Source: Chroococcidiopsis sp. CCMEE 29
GTDB lineage: Bacteria > Cyanobacteriota > Cyanobacteriia > Cyanobacteriales > Chroococcidiopsidaceae
Assembly: GCF_023558375.1 (NCBI RefSeq)
Contig: NZ_CP083761.1
Span: 5,349,001 to 5,413,000 of the forward strand
Direction: 5' to 3'
Length of the DNA: 64,000 nt
How positions within the stretch are numbered: position 1 is the first letter of the stretch; every line of letters begins with the position of its first letter. Positions 2,426-11,898 of this stretch are shown one piece after another. The notes beneath the pieces are model-generated. The model was not told where the DNA came from, did not search any database, and saw nothing but the letters and a program-made list of their open reading frames with translations. The translations under genes were made by a program, and so were the position numbers.

Positions 2426-2655
2426 GCATTACAGTTACAGGTACAATCCAACGCAGTGACATGGGTGCAGGCACTTGGGCACTGGCTGCAGATGATGGCG
2501 TTACCTATGAAGTCTACAGAGGTGCTCCGAAGGAGTTACTGAAATCAGGACAAAAAGTCAAAGTTAAAGGACAGGTGCGAGAAGATGTCATGACAGCTGC
2601 CATGATTGGACCTGTCCTCGAAGTGCAGTCGTTTGAGGTAATTAGTTCTGACTAG
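2422..2655 (+). CDS. Small OB-fold-like protein, coupled to the subtilase
   Basis: 77 residues starting at ATG 2422, which overlaps the stop of the upstream protease gene (ATGA). GGAGAG lies upstream at about 2405. I prefer this start over the longer in-frame opening from 2320 because the upstream part only shadows the protease gene. The sequence (MSITVTGTIQRSDMGAGTWA, then WALAADDGVTYEVYRGAP and KVKVKGQVRED) has the alternating beta pattern of OB-fold proteins in which a short chain is read as SDLG-GTWxLxxDDGxxYEL. No signal peptide or membrane segment is present. The function is not known; coupling suggests it works with the protease or is just co-expressed. Its 3' end overlaps the convergent thioredoxin-like gene by 14 bases. 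Confidence 0.8.
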   Translation: MSITVTGTIQRSDMGAGTWALAADDGVTYEVYRGAPKELLKSGQKVKVKGQVREDVMTAAMIGPVLEVQSFEVISSD

Positions 2656-2977
2656 CAGCAGCTGAATTTAGCACATCTTGCAGCCGACTTCTAAACTCTC
2701 CCTTGGGATGACCCCCTTTCACCTCGCCCAAAATCTCAAATTCTCCTTCTGGAGAGTCACAGATCAGGTAGGTGGGCCATCCCATTTCTGCTTTATCAGG
2801 ATACTGGCTCAAAAGAATCTTGCGATACTTCCGGTAAGTAGCGGTGTCCTGCATTTTGACATCAACAAATTTTAAACCCAGTTCCTCGCTCACCTTCTGG
2901 TCGTAAAAAGACATCTTATGGCAGATACCGCAATCTTCTGAAGAAAACTTAATTACAGCTCGATCCATTACTTGCAT
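2642..2977 (-). CDS. Thioredoxin-like protein with CxxC motif
   Basis: 111 residues, or 108 if translation starts at the internal Met4 (MDRAVIKFSSEDCGICHK). The redox motif is Cys16-Gly-Ile-Cys19 near the N-terminus, followed by the usual thioredoxin order: a beta strand (LKFVDVKM), the cis-proline region (MGWPTYLIC) and a final strand (EILGEVKGGHP). It lacks a signal peptide, so it should act in the cytoplasm as a small thiol oxidoreductase. The motif CGIC differs from the CGPC of classical thioredoxins, so substrates may differ. It runs convergently to the OB-fold gene with a 14-base overlap. Family assignment is good; the partner is unknown. Confidence 0.85.
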   Translation of the reverse strand: MQVMDRAVIKFSSEDCGICHKMSFYDQKVSEELGLKFVDVKMQDTATYRKYRKILLSQYPDKAEMGWPTYLICDSPEGEFEILGEVKGGHPKGEFRSRLQDVLNSAAASQN

Positions 2978-3125
2978 CCTCTCTCAGTTTGGAAAATATA
3001 AATTTCTACTGCTGATAGCTCAGCCTCTGATAATTCTCCCCAATAGGATATGCAGCAGGCAAATTTTGTAGCTAGGTTGAAGCGCAGTATACCAATTTCG
3101 ATGACTACCAACAGGAGATTTCACG

Positions 3126-3794
3126 ATGGCTTTGCAAGGAGTGATTCTAGATGTCGATGGTACACTTGTTTTAAGCAACGATGCCCATGCTCAAGCCTGG
3201 GTTGATGCCTTTGCCGCATTTGGTTATGAGGTACCATTCGAGCAAGTTCGACCACTGATTGGCATGGGTGGCGATCAAGTCATACCCCAGATGGTTCCAG
3301 GACTCACCGATGAGGAAGGCGATGGCAAAGCTATTTCTGAGCGGCGCAAAGAACTGATTATCAACCACTATGGACCAAAGTTAGAGCCAGCTAATGGCTC
3401 GCGGCAATTAATCCTGAAGATGAAGGATGCTGGATTAAAGCTGATCATTGCTAGCTCAGCTACAAGCCAAGAATTGGAAGTATTGCTTAAAGCTGCCCAA
3501 GTTGACGACTTGCTTGATGAAGCGACTACATCGAGCGATGCTGAGGCTTCCAAACCTGCACCAGATATTGTGGAAGTAGCGTTAAGTAAATTACAGATAG
3601 AACCCAATCAGGTTTTGATGCTCGGTGATACGCCCTACGATATCAAATCTGCGGCAGCGGCTGGAGTCGGTGTGATTGCGGTGCGCTGTGGCGGCTTTGA
3701 CGATGCTCAGCTAGCCGGAGCTATAGCAATTTATGACGATCCTGCTGATTTGTTAGCGCACTACGCCGATTCTCCACCTAACAAAACTAGATAA
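3126..3794 (+). CDS. HAD-superfamily hydrolase (phosphatase-like)
   Basis: 222 residues with all haloacid-dehalogenase motifs: motif I with Asp9 and Asp11 (ILDVDGTL), motif II SSATS, motif III Lys in ASKPAPDI and motif IV MLGDTPYD. The insertion after motif I (about 18-90) is a small helical cap, as in phosphoglycolate phosphatase and beta-phosphoglucomutase relatives. These enzymes hydrolyse or isomerise small phosphorylated metabolites through an aspartyl-phosphate intermediate. The sequence does not identify the substrate, so the name stays general. Cytoplasmic. The start is preceded by CAACAGGAGATTTCACG, a good ribosome site. The gene appears monocistronic and is followed by a REP-like palindrome pair. 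Confidence 0.9.
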   Translation: MALQGVILDVDGTLVLSNDAHAQAWVDAFAAFGYEVPFEQVRPLIGMGGDQVIPQMVPGLTDEEGDGKAISERRKELIINHYGPKLEPANGSRQLILKMKDAGLKLIIASSATSQELEVLLKAAQVDDLLDEATTSSDAEASKPAPDIVEVALSKLQIEPNQVLMLGDTPYDIKSAAAAGVGVIAVRCGGFDDAQLAGAIAIYDDPADLLAHYADSPPNKTR

Positions 3795-4328
3795 ATCTCA
3801 AATCTTGCACCAGACTGATGACCCGCCTGCAAATTAATTTGCAGGCTAATAGCAGAAGTCCTCTCAAGAGGACTGGTAAAGGAATTGAAGGAAATTTATT
3901 CCCTTGCGGACGGAAGGCTGTTGGTACAGCAACTGGTTTACGCAGTACTTAAATACGACTGCTGTTGCTTTATTCTGCATATTAGTACACTTTTTGCAAG
4001 CGTAAATGTACTGAGCAAATTTGACAAGATTTATTGTTGCCGCTAAATCACTTCAGAAGATTTACGCTCACAATACATTAACTGAGTGGATATCTTTAGT
4101 TAGAGCCAATCTACCTAACTAAAGAAGGTTAAGAACATTGGCAACGGTTACATGGAATCTAAACGATTAGTGCACTCAAGCAGCCTGGATGGCTAAATTT
4201 CTGCACAATCTCTTTGCTATAGGTCAGTTTATTCTTCGCAAGCATTTCTACATCTAGCGGCGAGGATGGCATGGCTGCACGATCTGTCGGATTCACTCAA
4301 TACATAAACATACTCTTTAACTGGCAAG
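3795..4328. other. Intergenic region with palindromic repeats, no gene seen
   Basis: 534 bases without a convincing gene. The left third holds two strong palindromes (listed separately) that could end transcription of the HAD gene. The rest is AT-rich and probably carries the promoter for the kinase at 4329. I see no RNA gene. Confidence 0.5.
3825..3874. repeat. REP-like double palindrome
   Basis: A perfect 22-base palindrome at 3825-3846 (half GCCTGCAAATT, inverted to AATTTGCAGGC) is followed after ten bases by a second stem at 3857-3874 (AGTCCTCT, two-base loop, AGAGGACT). The paired arrangement is typical of repetitive extragenic palindromes spread by REP-associated transposases. It sits just after the HAD gene and may also act as a terminator, although no T-run follows. 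Confidence 0.7.
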
Positions 4329-6485
4329 ATGAACTTGATCGGCAGCTTGGCTAGGAAACGTTCTCAATGGTGGCGCTACGGTTTTGCTGTATTGACTGTA
4401 GCGATCGCGCTGCTGGTGAAGCTGCTGCTACAGGCTGTGATCCACAATGAGAGCCCTTTTCTGCTGTTTTTTGCTGCCGTGCTAGTCAGTGCCCGGTATG
4501 GTGGCATGGGAGCAGGTTTGCTGGCTACCATTTTGTCCGCTTTAGTCAGTGATTTCTTCTTTCTATATCCCGTTTATTCGTTTATCACCCCCGACTGGGG
4601 GCAAACCTTACGGCTGTTGTTGTTCGTGGGAGAAGGGATAGCCATCAGTGAGGTAGTAGTGTCCCTTAATTCTGCTAAGCGGCGAGCTGAACTGAGGAGG
4701 CTAGAGGCTTTGCAACATCAGGAAACCTTACACCAAAGTGAAGAGCGCTTCCGCTTATTGGTTGAGGGTGTGAAAGACTACGCAATCTTCATGCTAGATC
4801 CCAAGGGATACATTGTCAGTTGGAATACTGGAGCAGAAAGAATTAAGGGTTATCAAGCCAATGAGATTATTAATCAACATTTCTCCCGCTTTTATACCCT
4901 TGAAGATATTCAAAGTGACAAACCGAATCGAGAATTACAGGTAGCAGCAGCAGAAGGTCGAATTGAGGACGAAGGTTGGCGGGTGCGTAAGGACGGCTCA
5001 CACTTCTGGGCGAGTGTTGTGATTACAGCATTACAAGATGAAACCGGACTCAAAGGTTTCTCGAAAGTGGTGCGTAACATCAATGAGCGCAAACAGGCAG
5101 AAGAGGAGTTGCGGCAGAACGAGGAGTTCCTACGACGGTTAGTCGCAAGTAGCGTAGATTGTATCAAGGTGCTGGATTTAGACGGACACTTGTTGTTCAT
5201 GAGCGCGGGAGGGCAGTTAGTCCTGGAAATTGATGATTTCACACCCTACCGGAACTCGTGGTGGGTGCAATTTTGGCAGCAAGGCGATAGAGAAGCAGTT
5301 TGCTCTGCCCTAGCGACGGCGCGGCAGGGAGGCATCGGCAAGTTCCAGGGGTATTGCCCAACAGCAAAGGGGAAGCCGAAGTGGTGGGAGGTCGTGATTA
5401 CGCCTATTATGGACGCCGAGGGCAAACCGGAAAAACTTCTATCGGTTTCTCATGATATCACTGCTCGCAAGCGTACAGAGGAGGCGCTACAAGCATCACT
5501 AAAAGATCTGGCGGACATCAAGTTTGCCTTAGATCAATCTTGTATTGTGGCAATCACTGACCACCAAGGAAAGATTACCTACGTCAACGATAAGTTTTGC
5601 GATATCTCCAAATATTCTCAAGCCGAACTGCTGGGACAAAACCACCGCATCATCAATTCCGGTTACCACCCGCAGGAATTCTTTCAACAAATGTGGGCGA
5701 TGATCGCCAGTGGGCAAGTCTGGCAAGGCGAAATTAAAAACCGAGCCAAGGACGGAACTTTTTACTGGGTGGATACAACGATCGTACCATTCTTAAATGC
5801 TGAGGGAAAACCCTACCAGTATGTGGCAATTCGTAGTGACGTCACCGAGCGCAAACGAGCAGAGGAGCAGATCAAAGTATCGCTCAAAGAAAAAGAAGTG
5901 CTATTAAAAGAAATTCACCACCGGGTGAAAAACAATTTGCAAATTATTTCCAGTCTACTTAATCTGCAGGCAGGATACATTGAGGATGAAAAAACGCTTG
6001 AGATCTTTAAAGCAGGAGAGAACCGGGTTGCCTCAATGGCTATGATCCATGAACAACTCTATCTATCGGAAGATTTGGCGTGGATTGATTTTGCTGAATA
6101 TATCGAAAATTTAGCAGCTAATTTACTCAATTCATACAACGTTGATTCAGAGGCGATCGCGCTAAAGATAAATGTTGATAAAGTCAGCCTCGAACTTGAT
6201 GCTGCAATTCCTTGTGGCTTAATTATCAATGAGCTGATTTAAAATTCCCTCAAATATGCCTTTCCATCAGGTAAAGAAGGTGAAATTCGCGTTGACCTTT
6301 ATAGGAATGATAATAATCATTTCATTCTTACCGTCAGCGATAATGGAATTGGGTTTCCTAAAGATTTAGACTTTCATAATACAACTTCACTAGGTTTGCA
6401 AATAGTAATTGCCTTAATAAATCAGTTAGGAGGCACGATTGAGCTCAATCGGGAGGGTGGTACAGAATTTAAAATTTTATTTTAG
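4329..6485 (+). pseudogene. Membrane PAS sensor histidine kinase interrupted by an in-frame stop in the ATPase N-box
   Basis: The frame from ATG 4329 encodes 637 residues and then meets TAA at 6240-6242, but the same frame continues to a TAG at 6483-6485 with a clear kinase C-terminus. Domain order: a DUF4118-like membrane region with about four hydrophobic segments (20-110), three PAS domains (about 138-255, 265-375, 395-510), a HisKA_2 segment (EIHHRVKNNLQIISS, His530/531), then HATPase_c. The stop falls inside the N-box: GLIINELI, stop, NSLKYAFP; relatives read NEL(V/I)SNSLKYAFP, so a serine codon TCA could have become TAA. Beyond the stop, DNGIGFP and TSLGLQIV (G boxes) are intact. Without readthrough the protein cannot bind ATP. 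It may be a recent pseudogene, a sequencing error or a truncated sensor. Directly upstream of a response-regulator hybrid. Confidence 0.85.
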
Positions 6486-6524: not shown

Positions 6525-8084
6525 ATGAATGACGCAAGCATACTAGTAGTTGAAGACGAAAGTCTCGTTGCTAAAGATATACAAAACAGGCTTAGAAAGT
6601 TTGGCTATAATGTACCTGCAATCGCAACTTCTGGAGAAGAAGCAATTAAGAAGGCATTAGAAATTTCTCCAGATTTAGTGCTAATGGATATTCGATTAAA
6701 AGGAAAGATGGACGGCGTAGAAGCCGCCCAAGCAATACATGCCAATTTAAATATTCCGATCATCTATCTGACTGCTAATGCAGATGACAGCACATTAGAG
6801 CGAGCAAAAGTAACAGGACCCTATGGTTACCTACTTAAACCTTTTAAAGAAAAAGAATTAAAAACTACCATTGAAATCACTCTGAATAAATACAGAATGG
6901 AGAAACAATTAAAACAGAGTGAGCAGTGGTTGACTACCGTACTTAAAAGTATTGGTGATGCTGTGATTACCAGCGATCGCACTGGAGCGGTAACTTTCAT
7001 GAATCCTATTGCCGAGGTGTTGACAGGCTGGAAACAGGAAGACGCTTTTGGTGCAGCTGTAACAACAGTATTCAATATTACCCACGAACAAACTCGTACC
7101 TTAATTGAGAGTCCCATAACGCAAGCGCTTCAGCAGGGAGTTACGGTCACCTTGCCAGAACGGACGATCCTTATTGCTAGAAATGGTGTAGAAATACCAA
7201 TTGATGATAGCGTTGCACCCATTAAAGATCAGCAAGGAAATGTCATGGGTGCGGTTTTAGTCTTTCGAGACGTTACCGAGCGCAAGCGAGCAGAAGAGGC
7301 ACGCCAAAAGCAAATTGAGCAGGAGCAGTTAGTGGCGCAGCTGGAAAAGGTTAATCAGCTCAAAGACGATTTCTTGAGCACCATTTCCCATGAATTGCGA
7401 ACTCCCATATCTAATATGAAAATGGCAATCCAAATGCTGAAATCTGCTCCCAGTGTTGAGCGAGGCCAGCTCTATTTAGATATCTTGCAATCTGAGTGCG
7501 CCCGTGAAATTGAGCTGATTAATAGCTTGCTAGACTTGCAGCGGCTAGAAACTGCATCTTATCTCACTGTGCTCGTCGAGGCTGTGAGCCTACAAGATTG
7601 TTTGCCTAGTATCATAGAACCGTTTCGAGCCCGTGCTCAGGAACGCGAACAAATTCTACAGATTAATCTTTCCCCCGATCTGCCTCAACTCAACTCAGAG
7701 CGTGCCAGCCTGGAACGAATCCTAGCAGAACTCCTAAATAATGCCTGCAAATACACTCGCGCTGGTGGTGAGATTATCTTGAGTGTTCGCCACAAATCCT
7801 CATTACCCGCGCCTTATCAACCTGGCTCAGATACAGTAACTATTTTTGCTGTCAGCAATCAAGCAGAAATTCCGGCAGTAGAGTTGCCACGGATCTTTGA
7901 AAAGTTTTATCGCGTTTCTGGTACCGATCGCTGGAAACAAGGTGGTACGGGGCTAGGATTAGCTCTAGTGAAGAAGTTAGTTGAATACCTGCAGGGAACA
8001 ATTCAGGTTGAAAGTAACAAGGGATGGACTACATTCACCGTCGAGTTACCCGATCTAGCTATAGCCCCTGAGCAGCAAATTTGA
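6525..8084 (+). CDS. Hybrid response regulator/histidine kinase (REC-PAS-HisKA-HATPase)
   Basis: 519 residues. An N-terminal receiver domain (1-120) carries Asp55 (DLVLMDIRL) as phosphoacceptor, the acidic pair in VVEDES, and the conserved Lys in LLKPFKEKE. A PAS domain follows (about 130-255, VITSDRTGAVTFMNPIAEVL), then a HisKA dimerisation domain with His289 (STISHELRTP) and a HATPase_c domain with NNACKY, IFEKFYR and GGTGLGLALVKKL. It has no membrane segment. This REC-first architecture takes a phosphate from another kinase and passes a signal on through its own kinase. The gene starts 39 bases after the final stop of the interrupted kinase, so that kinase would be the natural donor if it were intact. 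No DNA-binding output is present; the next partner is not evident here. Confidence 0.93.
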   Translation: MNDASILVVEDESLVAKDIQNRLRKFGYNVPAIATSGEEAIKKALEISPDLVLMDIRLKGKMDGVEAAQAIHANLNIPIIYLTANADDSTLERAKVTGPYGYLLKPFKEKELKTTIEITLNKYRMEKQLKQSEQWLTTVLKSIGDAVITSDRTGAVTFMNPIAEVLTGWKQEDAFGAAVTTVFNITHEQTRTLIESPITQALQQGVTVTLPERTILIARNGVEIPIDDSVAPIKDQQGNVMGAVLVFRDVTERKRAEEARQKQIEQEQLVAQLEKVNQLKDDFLSTISHELRTPISNMKMAIQMLKSAPSVERGQLYLDILQSECAREIELINSLLDLQRLETASYLTVLVEAVSLQDCLPSIIEPFRARAQEREQILQINLSPDLPQLNSERASLERILAELLNNACKYTRAGGEIILSVRHKSSLPAPYQPGSDTVTIFAVSNQAEIPAVELPRIFEKFYRVSGTDRWKQGGTGLGLALVKKLVEYLQGTIQVESNKGWTTFTVELPDLAIAPEQQI

Positions 8085-8169
8085 GCAGAAGGGCGAGCAA
8101 TTTTGACTTTTGGATTTCTCCCCTGCTCCCTACTCACCCTAACAACAAGCAGAAACTTTCAGAGAGTAG

Positions 8170-10575
8170 ATGGCATCTAAACTCTCAGAAGGGCAAACAG
8201 CTAAAACTAGATTAGGGACGCAACCAGGAGAAGTTGTGGCGCAGGAATTTAAAATCTCCGTGACTCCATTGGAGCAAGGCGACTATCTAATACGGACGGA
8301 AAAAGTTGCGCCTGGTGTACCAGTGGCACAAGAGCAAGTGACCTTACCGCTCAGGGATTGGTTAATTCAGGCGGATCAGCTGTTGAATAATTGTCTAAAT
8401 AATGTTGCTGAAAATTCACTCAATTTAGTCAACCTGGGTCAACAACTTTACAATGCACTGTTTCAAGGTAGCGTGCAAGCTAGCTGGATGAATGCTCAAA
8501 CAATTGCTCAGCAACAGCAAGAGGTATTGCAGCTACGCTTAGGAATAAAAGACCCCCAGTTGGCAAGTCTGCCTTGGGAAATTATTCATGCAGGCGACCG
8601 CTTCCTAGCCACTGACCCATCTATTGCATTTTCTCGCTATCAAGCCAATGCAGCACTAGTAGCACCAGACACCACAAGCACCCTGGCAATGTCAGTACAT
8701 TCCTTGCAGCCAGATGTGGTGAAAGTACTGACGGTAATCGCTTTACCTCACGAGCCAGCTAGTCTCACGCTCAAGCAAGAATTTACGAGACTACAAACAG
8801 AATGTCAAGCACAGCAATCATGTTTTGCCCCTGGTGGTAGCATGACTGCACTTCAAATTACTATCCTAGAGCAGCCAGGACGGGGACAATTGACACAAGC
8901 CTTAGGGCAGGAACAATATCAGGTTCTACACTATATTGGTTTTAGCAACTTAGGAGCTACCGAGGCAGAACTCTACCTAAGCAGTAGTAATGGCTTGACC
9001 GAAACGCTAACTGGAGATCAGCTAGCGGACATGTTAGTAAACAATGGTATCCAGATAGCCATATTTAACTTTATCCATAGAAACTCCCTGACTCCTAGTA
9101 GAATGCCACAGGCAAAGCTGATTGAGAGCCTGATTAAGTATGGCATTAACGGCGTGTTGACAATGGCGGAATGTATTCCCGATGAAGTGGTAGTAGTGAT
9201 TGCCCGGCTATTCTACCGCCACCTCAGCCAAGGGCATCCTGTGGCTCACAATCTTACTCAGGTGCGGCAGGAATTGATTTCTGTCTATGGATTGAACAAA
9301 CTGTACTGGGCTTTACCCATCCTTTACCTCCACCCCAAATATAACGGCTGTGGTGAACTAATAGACTTAGCAACTGGATTAGACGCGTTGGGCGAGGAAG
9401 AATGGGACGATCTAGTTGATGAAATTGAAGATGATGACCCTGGCTATGAAGAGGACGCTGCTTTAGTTGCGGATCTGTTTCGCCAACTCGCTAACCCAGC
9501 ACCAACCACAAATTCACCGATTTCTACTGACGCTCTCGACCATTTATCAGAAATCGCACAGACCAAGGATGAAAATCTCAGCGAGGTAAAAACTCCGGTT
9601 TCTGATACCGCATCGGGTCCCATGGTACAAAAAGATGTAAAGTCCTCCCCTACTTCCCCTGCTCCCCCTGCTCCCCCTGCTCTCCCTGCCTCCTCTGCTC
9701 TCTTTAAAACTCCTGGAATCCGAATTGCCTCAAGCTTGGTGGGAGTTGCCGCGATCGCCCTCCTGGGACTATGGTGGCAAAATCGGGAAACGATATTAGA
9801 GTATTTTTTACGGCCAATTCCCCAATCTTTCCTTGCCAAGATAGCTGACGTCAACTTGAAGACGGCTAGCACCTCCGATATCACTGCGATCGCCGTTGAA
9901 CATTTCCGCAAGGGAAACTTGAGTGCTGGCTATCTGGCTGTTGAAGAACTGTTGAACCGAGGAGCACTGCAAAACGCTAGTAAAGCTCTTGCCGCCTCCC
10001 CGCAGCAAACCAAAACAAGTGCCATCGCTTTTCTTTGGGGACGCTTAACGTGGCAGTTCGTTCAGGTTGGTTACAAAAATTACAGCTTAGATGATGCCCG
10101 CCGTTACTGGGAAGCTGCTGTTAAAGCTCAACCGGATTCCCCACACTACCGCAATGCTTTAGGCTTTGCCTACTACGCCGAAGACAAACTGCAACTAGCC
10201 TATCAAACATGGTTCGAGGCGTTGTACTTAGTGGAAGAACAGCAAGCAGCGAAAATAACCACCTTTACTATATCGACATCAACACTCAACCCATCTCTCA
10301 CCAAGGGGGAAGCAACCAATGCTTATGCTGGTTTAGCGTTGGTACTTCACAAAGCAGCACCAGATCAACCCAAAGATCAACGAGAAAAGTTTGTAAGTAC
10401 AGCAATTAAGCTACGTCAAAAGGTATTGACAGACGATCCAGTTAGTTTCCAGCCACAAAGTTTGGGCAAAAATTGGCTGTGGACAGAGAAGGCAATTCAA
10501 GACTGGCAATCTCTACTCCAACAAAAAAGCGACAACTATGACTTGCAAAAAGGTAGAATCTTTGTTGAGAATTGA
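8170..10575 (+). CDS. CHAT-domain-like membrane protein with TPR-like C-terminus; catalytic residues missing
   Basis: 801 residues. Residues about 90-395 match the CHAT (caspase HetF-associated TPR) fold: LPWEIIHAGDRFLATDPSIA, a VLHYIGFS strand, and a closing IKYGINGVLTMAE/YWALPILYLHP block. In active CHAT peptidases the His lies in a GHG-type motif and the Cys in an NAC-type motif. Here these positions read H254-Y-I-G-F258 and F-N-F-I302, so the dyad is absent and the domain is probably a scaffold. An acidic stretch (EEEWDDLVDEIEDDD) and a Ser/Pro/Ala linker (about 490-512) follow, then one membrane helix (about 517-537) and a helical TPR-like region to the end. The linker is encoded by an intergenic-type purine repeat. 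Downstream of two kinase genes, which suggests a signalling role; this is inference. Confidence 0.8.
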   Translation: MASKLSEGQTAKTRLGTQPGEVVAQEFKISVTPLEQGDYLIRTEKVAPGVPVAQEQVTLPLRDWLIQADQLLNNCLNNVAENSLNLVNLGQQLYNALFQGSVQASWMNAQTIAQQQQEVLQLRLGIKDPQLASLPWEIIHAGDRFLATDPSIAFSRYQANAALVAPDTTSTLAMSVHSLQPDVVKVLTVIALPHEPASLTLKQEFTRLQTECQAQQSCFAPGGSMTALQITILEQPGRGQLTQALGQEQYQVLHYIGFSNLGATEAELYLSSSNGLTETLTGDQLADMLVNNGIQIAIFNFIHRNSLTPSRMPQAKLIESLIKYGINGVLTMAECIPDEVVVVIARLFYRHLSQGHPVAHNLTQVRQELISVYGLNKLYWALPILYLHPKYNGCGELIDLATGLDALGEEEWDDLVDEIEDDDPGYEEDAALVADLFRQLANPAPTTNSPISTDALDHLSEIAQTKDENLSEVKTPVSDTASGPMVQKDVKSSPTSPAPPAPPALPASSALFKTPGIRIASSLVGVAAIALLGLWWQNRETILEYFLRPIPQSFLAKIADVNLKTASTSDITAIAVEHFRKGNLSAGYLAVEELLNRGALQNASKALAASPQQTKTSAIAFLWGRLTWQFVQVGYKNYSLDDARRYWEAAVKAQPDSPHYRNALGFAYYAEDKLQLAYQTWFEALYLVEEQQAAKITTFTISTSTLNPSLTKGEATNAYAGLALVLHKAAPDQPKDQREKFVSTAIKLRQKVLTDDPVSFQPQSLGKNWLWTEKAIQDWQSLLQQKSDNYDLQKGRIFVEN
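9651..9705. repeat. Short tandem repeat inside the CHAT-protein gene
   Basis: The strand reads repeats of CCCCTGCT and CCCCCTGCT, the complement of the GGGGAGCAG-type tandem repeat seen between genes elsewhere in the window (26111, 28127, 34261, 41563, 42961). It is translated in frame as a Ser/Pro/Ala linker just before the membrane helix, so the repeat appears to have been accommodated as a flexible spacer. Confidence 0.7.
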
Positions 10576-10850: not shown

Positions 10851-10956
10851 AGAGTAGACCTCCTGCATGAATAGTAGAGCAGTGTGACAGTTAGCAAGAG
10901 AAGACTTGGATAATGGGGTAGAGGCATGGCAGGAATGGAAAAAAGGAGGAGACATC

Positions 10957-11785
10957 GTGCCATACACCGACTTACAACATCTTTCAGCCGCCGAGTTTAA
11001 GCGCCTGTGCGGGGTGAGCCATGAAACCTTTAACGAAATGGTAGAGGTGTTGCGACCACATTTAGAGCGTCAAGGTCGGCGGGGAGGACAGAACAAGCTG
11101 AGTGTGGAAGACCAACTGTTGATGACATTAGAGTATTGGCGCGAATATCGTAGTCAGTTCCATATTGCCATCAGTTGGGGACTGCACGAGACCACGGTAG
11201 GGCGAACATCAAAAAAGTCGAAGACTTGTTGGTTAAGTGCGGCAAGTTTCGGCTGCCAAGTAAACGTCATCTGTATCAGCCAGGCTGTGAGTGGAAAGTT
11301 TTGGTGATAGATGCGAGTGAAATGGAGATTGAGCGCCCCCAAAAAAACAGAAACGCTATTACAGTGGCAAACACAAGTGCCATACGCGCTCAGTTACAAC
11401 TGGTGGTAGCATGGGAAACAGGGCAGATTGTTTGCGTATTAGTTGACAAGGGCAGAACCCACGACTTTAAGTTATTCAAGCGCAGTCGAATTCCATTCAG
11501 AGCGTCGCAGTTGTGTTTAGCTGACCGAGGCTATCAGGGGTTTAGCAAGCTACATAGGGGTGCTTGTACACCAACGAAAAAACCCAAAAAGCAGCCATTG
11601 CCAACGGCAGAAAAGCACCACATCGGGCACTAGCTAAGCTGCGTGTTCGCGTTGAACATGTGATTCGTCGCTTCAAGATTTTCCGCATTTTTGCTGGACG
11701 CTATCGAAATCGTAGAAAGCGGTTCGGTTTACGTTTGAATCTCATTGCTGGTCTGCTCAATTACGAACTGGCACATGCTGCTTGA
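10957..11785 (+). pseudogene. IS5-type DDE transposase with slippery site and a second frameshift
   Basis: The first frame starts best at GTG 10957 (AAGGAGGAGACATC upstream is a strong ribosome site) and reads MPYTDLQHLSAAEFKRLCGV, a typical IS5-type N-terminus. At 11211-11217 the sequence is A AAA AAG in the exact -1 slippery phase; slipping joins GRTSKK to VEDLLVKCGKFRLPS in the next frame, matching the expected protein. That frame carries the first catalytic Asp (VLVIDASEMEIERP) and the second (LCLADRGYQG) but stops at 11631-11633. The end of the protein (HRALAKLRVRVEHVIRRFKI, with the catalytic Glu, to LLNYELAHAA) is in a third frame. The junction near 11612-11630 has no good slippery site, so it looks like a single-base indel. 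The element is probably inactive on its own. Confidence 0.82.
11211..11217 (+). promoter_or_regulatory. Probable programmed -1 ribosomal frameshift site (A_AAA_AAG)
   Basis: The heptamer aligns with the upstream frame as tcA AAA AAG, the required phase for tandem slippage of two lysine tRNAs. Several IS families use exactly this heptamer to make the full transposase from two overlapping frames. Slippage here restores homology-consistent sequence on both sides. No stimulatory structure was verified. Confidence 0.7.
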
Positions 11786-11898
11786 TTCATGCAAGAGGTC
11801 TAGTGATTGAAGAGCGATATACAAACTACCAAATCGTTCCAAGGACGATAAGTAGAGGTAGTTGGAAAGCCTGATAAGTAATCAACCGTAGAAGGGTA

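Follow-up and report, generated by a model that had tools for sequence, protein, structure and literature searches.

A probable recent nonsense allele of a HisKA_2-type sensor histidine kinase gene in Chroococcidiopsis sp. CCMEE 29

The window analyzed here is a 64,000-base stretch of the genome of Chroococcidiopsis sp. CCMEE 29 (positions 5,349,001–5,413,000 of a 5,716,410-base contig), and it carries a gene for a membrane sensor histidine kinase whose frame is interrupted by a TAA codon inside the ATP-binding domain. As judged from its sequence, this is probably the gene of an ordinary sensor histidine kinase of the cyanobacterial type with a nonsense mutation of recent date; on the best reading, one of the three HisKA_2 kinases of this genome thereby lost its kinase activity not long ago. 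The frame starts with ATG at 4329, reaches the TAA at 6240–6242 (between ATT at 6237–6239 and AAT at 6243–6245) and is then open until TAG at 6483–6485. The features along it are the following, where N-box, G1-box and G2-box are the names that we assume to apply to its motifs.

4329..6242, + strand: truncated sensor kinase open reading frame as it stands, 637 residues and then TAA (frame reading)
4377..4691, + strand: DUF4118, the membrane sensor region, residues 17–121 (Pfam PF13493, E 1.5e-22)
5145..5474, + strand: PAS_4, residues 273–382, the best of three PAS_4 stretches, with a further PAS region N-terminal of it (Pfam PF08448)
5541..5849, + strand: PAS_9, residues 405–507, best solved match 3ewk_A (Pfam; PDB E 7.2e-52)
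5910..6137, + strand: HisKA_2 dimerization and phosphoacceptor domain, residues 528–603 (Pfam PF07568, E 1.9e-30)
5919..5921, + strand: CAC codon of the phosphoacceptor His (the His preceding Arg in HHRVKNN), intact and aligned with the His of the kinase EL346
6228..6266, + strand: N-box, NELI(stop)NSLKYAFP (translation, alignments)
6240..6242, + strand: premature TAA (codon reading)
6243..6485, + strand: rest of the ATPase domain, 80 open in-frame codons and the terminal TAG (HATPase_c when searched alone, E 2e-11)
6339..6359, + strand: G1-box DNGIGFP, 3' of the stop (translation, alignment)
6387..6401, + strand: G2-box SLGLQ, 3' of the stop (translation, alignment)

When the stop is read as X, the resulting 718 residues comprise DUF4118, three PAS stretches, HisKA_2 and HATPase_c (Pfam), and the HisKA_2 domain keeps HHRVKNN with the His that we take to be the residue that gets phosphorylated. 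HATPase_c is whole only when the stop is read in this way; in the translated product, the TAA removes the last 80 residues. To judge from these domains, the gene is a descendant of HisKA_2-type sensor kinases whose product, as it stands, would be no working member of the group. Searched alone, the 80 residues behind the stop match HATPase_c. They also align to 16 open kinases, in which 14 post-stop positions are invariant, and all 14 of these are conserved in the window kinase; thus, the open remainder is not a product of chance. In the alignment with EL346 (PDB 4r3a), Thr stands at the position of the stop. An earlier note on this DNA had placed the TAA within the N-box of an otherwise intact kinase, with the frame continuing to 6485; codon reading confirms the coordinates and the motif, and the domain matches on both sides of the stop bear out the rest of that description.

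The lesion is absent from the orthologues of the gene in related genomes. The genus set that was searched consisted of the window genome only, and the family set comprised 19 genomes, its own included (numbered here G000 upward, with G000 as the window genome); the closest strains, CCMEE 057 and 064, lie outside these collections. The gene order HAD-like hydrolase, kinase, REC-PAS-kinase and CHAT-domain protein is found in seven other genomes of the family (G010–G015 and G017), where the CHAT matches of G010–G015 are weak (33–42% identity) yet in place. In G009, the kinase and the REC-kinase stand together with the protease, a homologue of the gene upstream of the window kinase (assigned to S8 by eye), and there is no match to the HAD gene. 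The kinases of all seven fully syntenic genomes are open and have Ser at the site of the stop, the residue that the earlier note had proposed to look for in related strains. With G009 (partial order), G007 and G008, ten relatives have a kinase that is open through the site, and the gene order behind these ten covers G009–G015 and G017. The 16 comparison kinases (those of G007–G015 and G017, the two paralogues in the window genome, one on G017:C172, two of G016 and one of G006) are open from kinase start to end, and their codons at the site are TCT, TCA, TCC, ACA, GCA, TTG or TTA; the last two encode Leu in the two G016 homologues.

Among 41 distinct homologues, own paralogues included, the site holds Ser in 31, Thr in seven, Leu in two and Ala in one, and a stop in none. 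This count is of fetched loci (30 loci used, one of them the window, from matches in 81 of the 148 genomes of the order), and it leaves out repeated copies of the same loci, a frameshifted G018 kinase and 14 distant loci. In that G018 kinase, the piece that aligns contains two stops, but the alignment is gapped and misframed at the site. The 14 distant loci came from a contig scan with the truncated protein, which returned none from a close strain and may omit the own or very near genomes; 11 of them aligned over the site, and none has a stop there. The average nucleotide identity among CCMEE 029, 057 and 064 is 93.57–94.44 (PMC13308351), a distance at which the stop may be either shared with the sister strains or absent from them. 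The trees do not settle the place of the window kinase. The likeliest ancestral codon is Ser TCA, because both paralogues in the same genome and the nearest homologue (the first G018 copy) carry TCA at the site. The single C-to-A change of a serine codon proposed in the earlier note therefore stands as the likeliest path and not as the only one, as Leu TTA is also one step from TAA and is a possible ancestor.

The remainder of the gene is as little changed as a young lesion needs; one of the three reference sets gives a high ratio. When the amino-acid change behind the stop is divided by that in front of it, the median ratio is 1.47 for the window kinase, against 1.40–1.87 for the 16 comparators each taken in turn; it is 1.25 against G007–G009 (others 1.10–2.29) and 1.42 against the mixed rest (others 1.16–1.84). 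Change behind the stop is thus not consistently raised, and this, with the 14 invariant residues kept, no further stop and no stop at the site in the 41 kinases, supports the earlier suggestion that the lesion is recent. A neutral simulation was set to equal transitions and transversions and, by our own choice, to one insertion or deletion (indel) per ten substitutions. The share of segments that had no stop or indel and kept the 14 residues fell from 29% to 4.9% and 0.7% as divergence rose from 0.02 to 0.05 and 0.08 substitutions per site. Since few neutral runs stay clean beyond 0.05 substitutions per site, this simple simulation suggests that the post-stop part, if unused, is younger than about 0.05 substitutions per site and was broken recently.

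Four points weigh against a recent loss. Measured against G010–G015, the ratio is 2.24 for the window kinase, the highest of 11 genes (others 1.34–1.94), and the result is not wholly clean; it is read as a slow front half and not as decay because the post-stop change (0.413) is mid-range (others 0.34–0.51) and the pre-stop change (0.18) is the lowest (others 0.21–0.28). The comparisons are also distant, with synonymous sites near saturation, so that only fairly old decay would show. The TAA itself is read from the assembly, and readthrough or selection would be expected to leave a similarly open, conserved remainder.

If the stop acts as written, translation would end inside the ATP-binding domain, and the product would be without the second half of the N-box, the G1-box and the G2-box but would retain the membrane region, the PAS sensors, the dimerization helices and the phosphoacceptor His. 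It should neither bind ATP nor autophosphorylate, because it ends within HATPase_c, whose known fold would be incomplete. The kinase gene and the open REC-PAS-kinase gene downstream of it are neighbors in all seven fully syntenic genomes, and it is fair to suppose, with the earlier note, that the REC-first kinase may have lost its donor; it would then work by itself or depend on other donors, such as the two HisKA_2 paralogues that are open. As a broken gene, this one is ordinary, and its annotation as an active histidine kinase would be wrong.

It is also conceivable, though unlikely, that the truncation is functional and that the product serves as a pseudokinase, which senses, dimerizes with a paralogue or is phosphorylated in trans at its intact His, and thereby modulates the REC-PAS-kinase. 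The sensor, the dimerization helices and the phosphoacceptor all lie 5' of the stop, and a precedent exists in Corynebacterium glutamicum, where a frameshift in the CA domain of ChrS arose during laboratory evolution and produced a pseudokinase with an effect exceeding that of a deletion, exerted via the paralogous kinase HrrS; heterodimers were found in a two-hybrid test, and a table also lists a nonsense mutation of this gene (PMC9491836). In the accessible literature on pseudogene kinases of cyanobacteria, on truncated or degenerate kinases and on UAA readthrough in bacteria, this paper was the one useful analogue. EL346-like kinases that form a group without the phosphoacceptor have also been reported (PMC10359499), and the positional orthologue in G017 has Pro for the His, with its ATPase domain open. 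Against a functional truncation, there is no sign that the truncation is old, the removed part has no visible decay, and the paralogues are only 60–63% identical to the window kinase in the kinase part. In addition, the pseudokinase's own His was found to play no part in the ChrS case (PMC9491836), which speaks against phosphate in trans. ChrS and the window kinase are alike in being histidine kinases cut within the ATPase domain, with the front kept and a paralogous kinase present; they differ in that ChrS, taken here as an analogue, comes from laboratory evolution with benefit and heterodimers shown. Should the cell make use of the shortened protein, this would be a naturally arisen parallel to the ChrS pseudokinase from laboratory evolution, and at this locus it was the phosphoacceptor that a relative lost.

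An assembly or sequencing error at 6240–6242 in an intact gene is rather improbable. The difference is a substitution and not a homopolymer indel, which is the typical long-read error. The assembly combines Illumina with Nanopore data, and the totals given with it imply 210–212 variants per sample that have one genotype in all four samples and were set aside by the authors (PMC9120168). These variants could include reference errors, but even if all of them did, they would amount to about 3 per 100,000 bases, a rate that would probably explain few broken genes.

Changes to the kinase are also seen elsewhere in the family. In G017 (contig C63, locus L088), the kinase at 2538–4745 has CCC (Pro) for the phosphoacceptor His (HPRVKNN), and its ATPase domain is open; the His is kept in 40 of the 41 homologues, this positional orthologue being the exception, and its branch is longer than that of the window kinase (0.42 against 0.24). 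In G018 (C14:1-9000, locus L089), two tandem HisKA_2 kinases stand beside a REC-PAS-kinase. The first is open, has a REC remnant after it (by eye) and groups with G017:C172 (98/95), and the second, which adjoins the REC-PAS-kinase, has an ETR1_N sensor and several frameshifts; for these reasons, G018 was rejected as a clean orthologue. A homologue of the upstream protease on contig C39 of G018 is also broken in frame, which puts the quality of that assembly in doubt. The kinases of G007–G015 have no comparable change. Taken post hoc and from draft genomes, these cases hint that part of the family may be under weak constraint for kinase activity at this locus. A broader proposal is that kinase activity at the two-gene locus was lost repeatedly by different routes (the ATPase cut in the window, His to Pro in G017, frameshifts in G018), with the sensor retained in the membrane as a PAS pseudokinase and directing the open REC-PAS-kinase via dimers with paralogues or phosphate from them; this is decidedly doubtful.

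Readthrough of the TAA, programmed or suppressed, that yields some full-length kinase would agree with the conserved post-stop part, but it is highly improbable, because no stop-reading anticodon (TTA, CTA or TCA) occurs among the 41 transfer RNAs (tRNAs) called by ARAGORN and because 0 of 41 homologues have a stop at the site, which argues that there is no conserved programmed readthrough. The tRNA search gave 42 Rfam matches, and 150 of 364 first-look candidates were scored; given this coverage and a published count of 44 (PMC13308351), of which the set is slightly short, a few tRNAs were missed, and the readthrough suggested in the earlier note finds no suppressor among those found. A split gene or internal restart was rejected: no in-frame ATG or GTG follows 6240–6242, the only restart is a TTG at 6396 that leaves 29 residues, and an out-of-frame ATG at 6256 gives 37 residues.

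The closest known systems are pairs of an open DUF4118-PAS-HisKA_2-HATPase_c kinase and a REC-PAS-HisKA kinase (on G017:C63 in L088 and on G013:C28 in L096), which share with the window the gene order, the DUF4118 start and the HisKA_2/HATPase_c end. The kinases of the seven syntenic genomes are 63–67% identical to the window kinase in the kinase part; they differ in being open through the N-box and in their middle sensors, which are PAS_3 or PAS_3 and GAF, and that of G017 differs further by its Pro. Among solved structures, the best match that covers the PAS, HisKA_2 and ATPase parts is the blue-light HWE/HisKA2 kinase EL346 (PDB 4r3a and 4r39, E 1.5e-22). EL346 is soluble and intact and has a LOV sensor (PMC10359499), whereas the protein of the window is truncated and carries a membrane region of the DUF4118 type. 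The third PAS region (5541–5849) has 3ewk_A as its best solved match, with PAS chains of Aer and NifL also matched. This suggests that the region is a flavin redox sensor, a role that we presume for this PAS family.

The whole genome consists of two contigs with 6,389,772 bases. Published accounts of CCMEE 029, a well-studied desert cyanobacterium, give a 5.7-Mbp chromosome and a 673-kbp plasmid (PMC9120168), and the chromosome size is also given as 5.72 Mbp (PMC13308351). The genome has three HisKA_2 matches, and the two kinases other than that of the window are open, with a REC gene after each. Two of its 89 HATPase_c matches carry a TAA, namely, the window kinase and a row at 4,754,923, where the TAA is the gene's own end. 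Near this row, a second kinase in the same genome (L054, G000:C1:4748000-4762000, at about 7741–9242; a REC-PAS-kinase by eye) is broken by a frameshift that lies between the G1-box and the G2-box. The idea that the genome holds many broken kinases was rejected, as the other TAA is a terminal stop and one further kinase is split by a frameshift.

The genes that mark the syntenic order around the window kinase are as follows.

3126..3794, + strand: HAD-like hydrolase, the upstream syntenic marker (named by eye, not from Pfam)
6525..8084, + strand: partner gene REC-PAS-HisKA-HATPase_c, 519 residues, open (Pfam; a neighbor in G010–G015 and G017)
8170..10575, + strand: CHAT-domain protein, the downstream syntenic marker (Pfam PF12770, E 1.1e-17)

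At the place of its G1-box, usually DxGxG, the partner has SNQAEIP, and its orthologues in G017 and G013 have the same SNQAEI by eye. Between 3750 and 6600, neither promoter-like sites (3 against 4.5 in shuffles) nor terminator-like sites (3 against 2.6, standard deviation 1.7) occur beyond chance. Downstream of the CHAT gene, positions 10855–11802 hold an element that resembles an insertion sequence. Its inverted ends of 18 bases are 94% complementary, and its transposase is split over two frames at 10906–11307 (HTH_Tnp_4) and 11175–11633 (DDE_Tnp).
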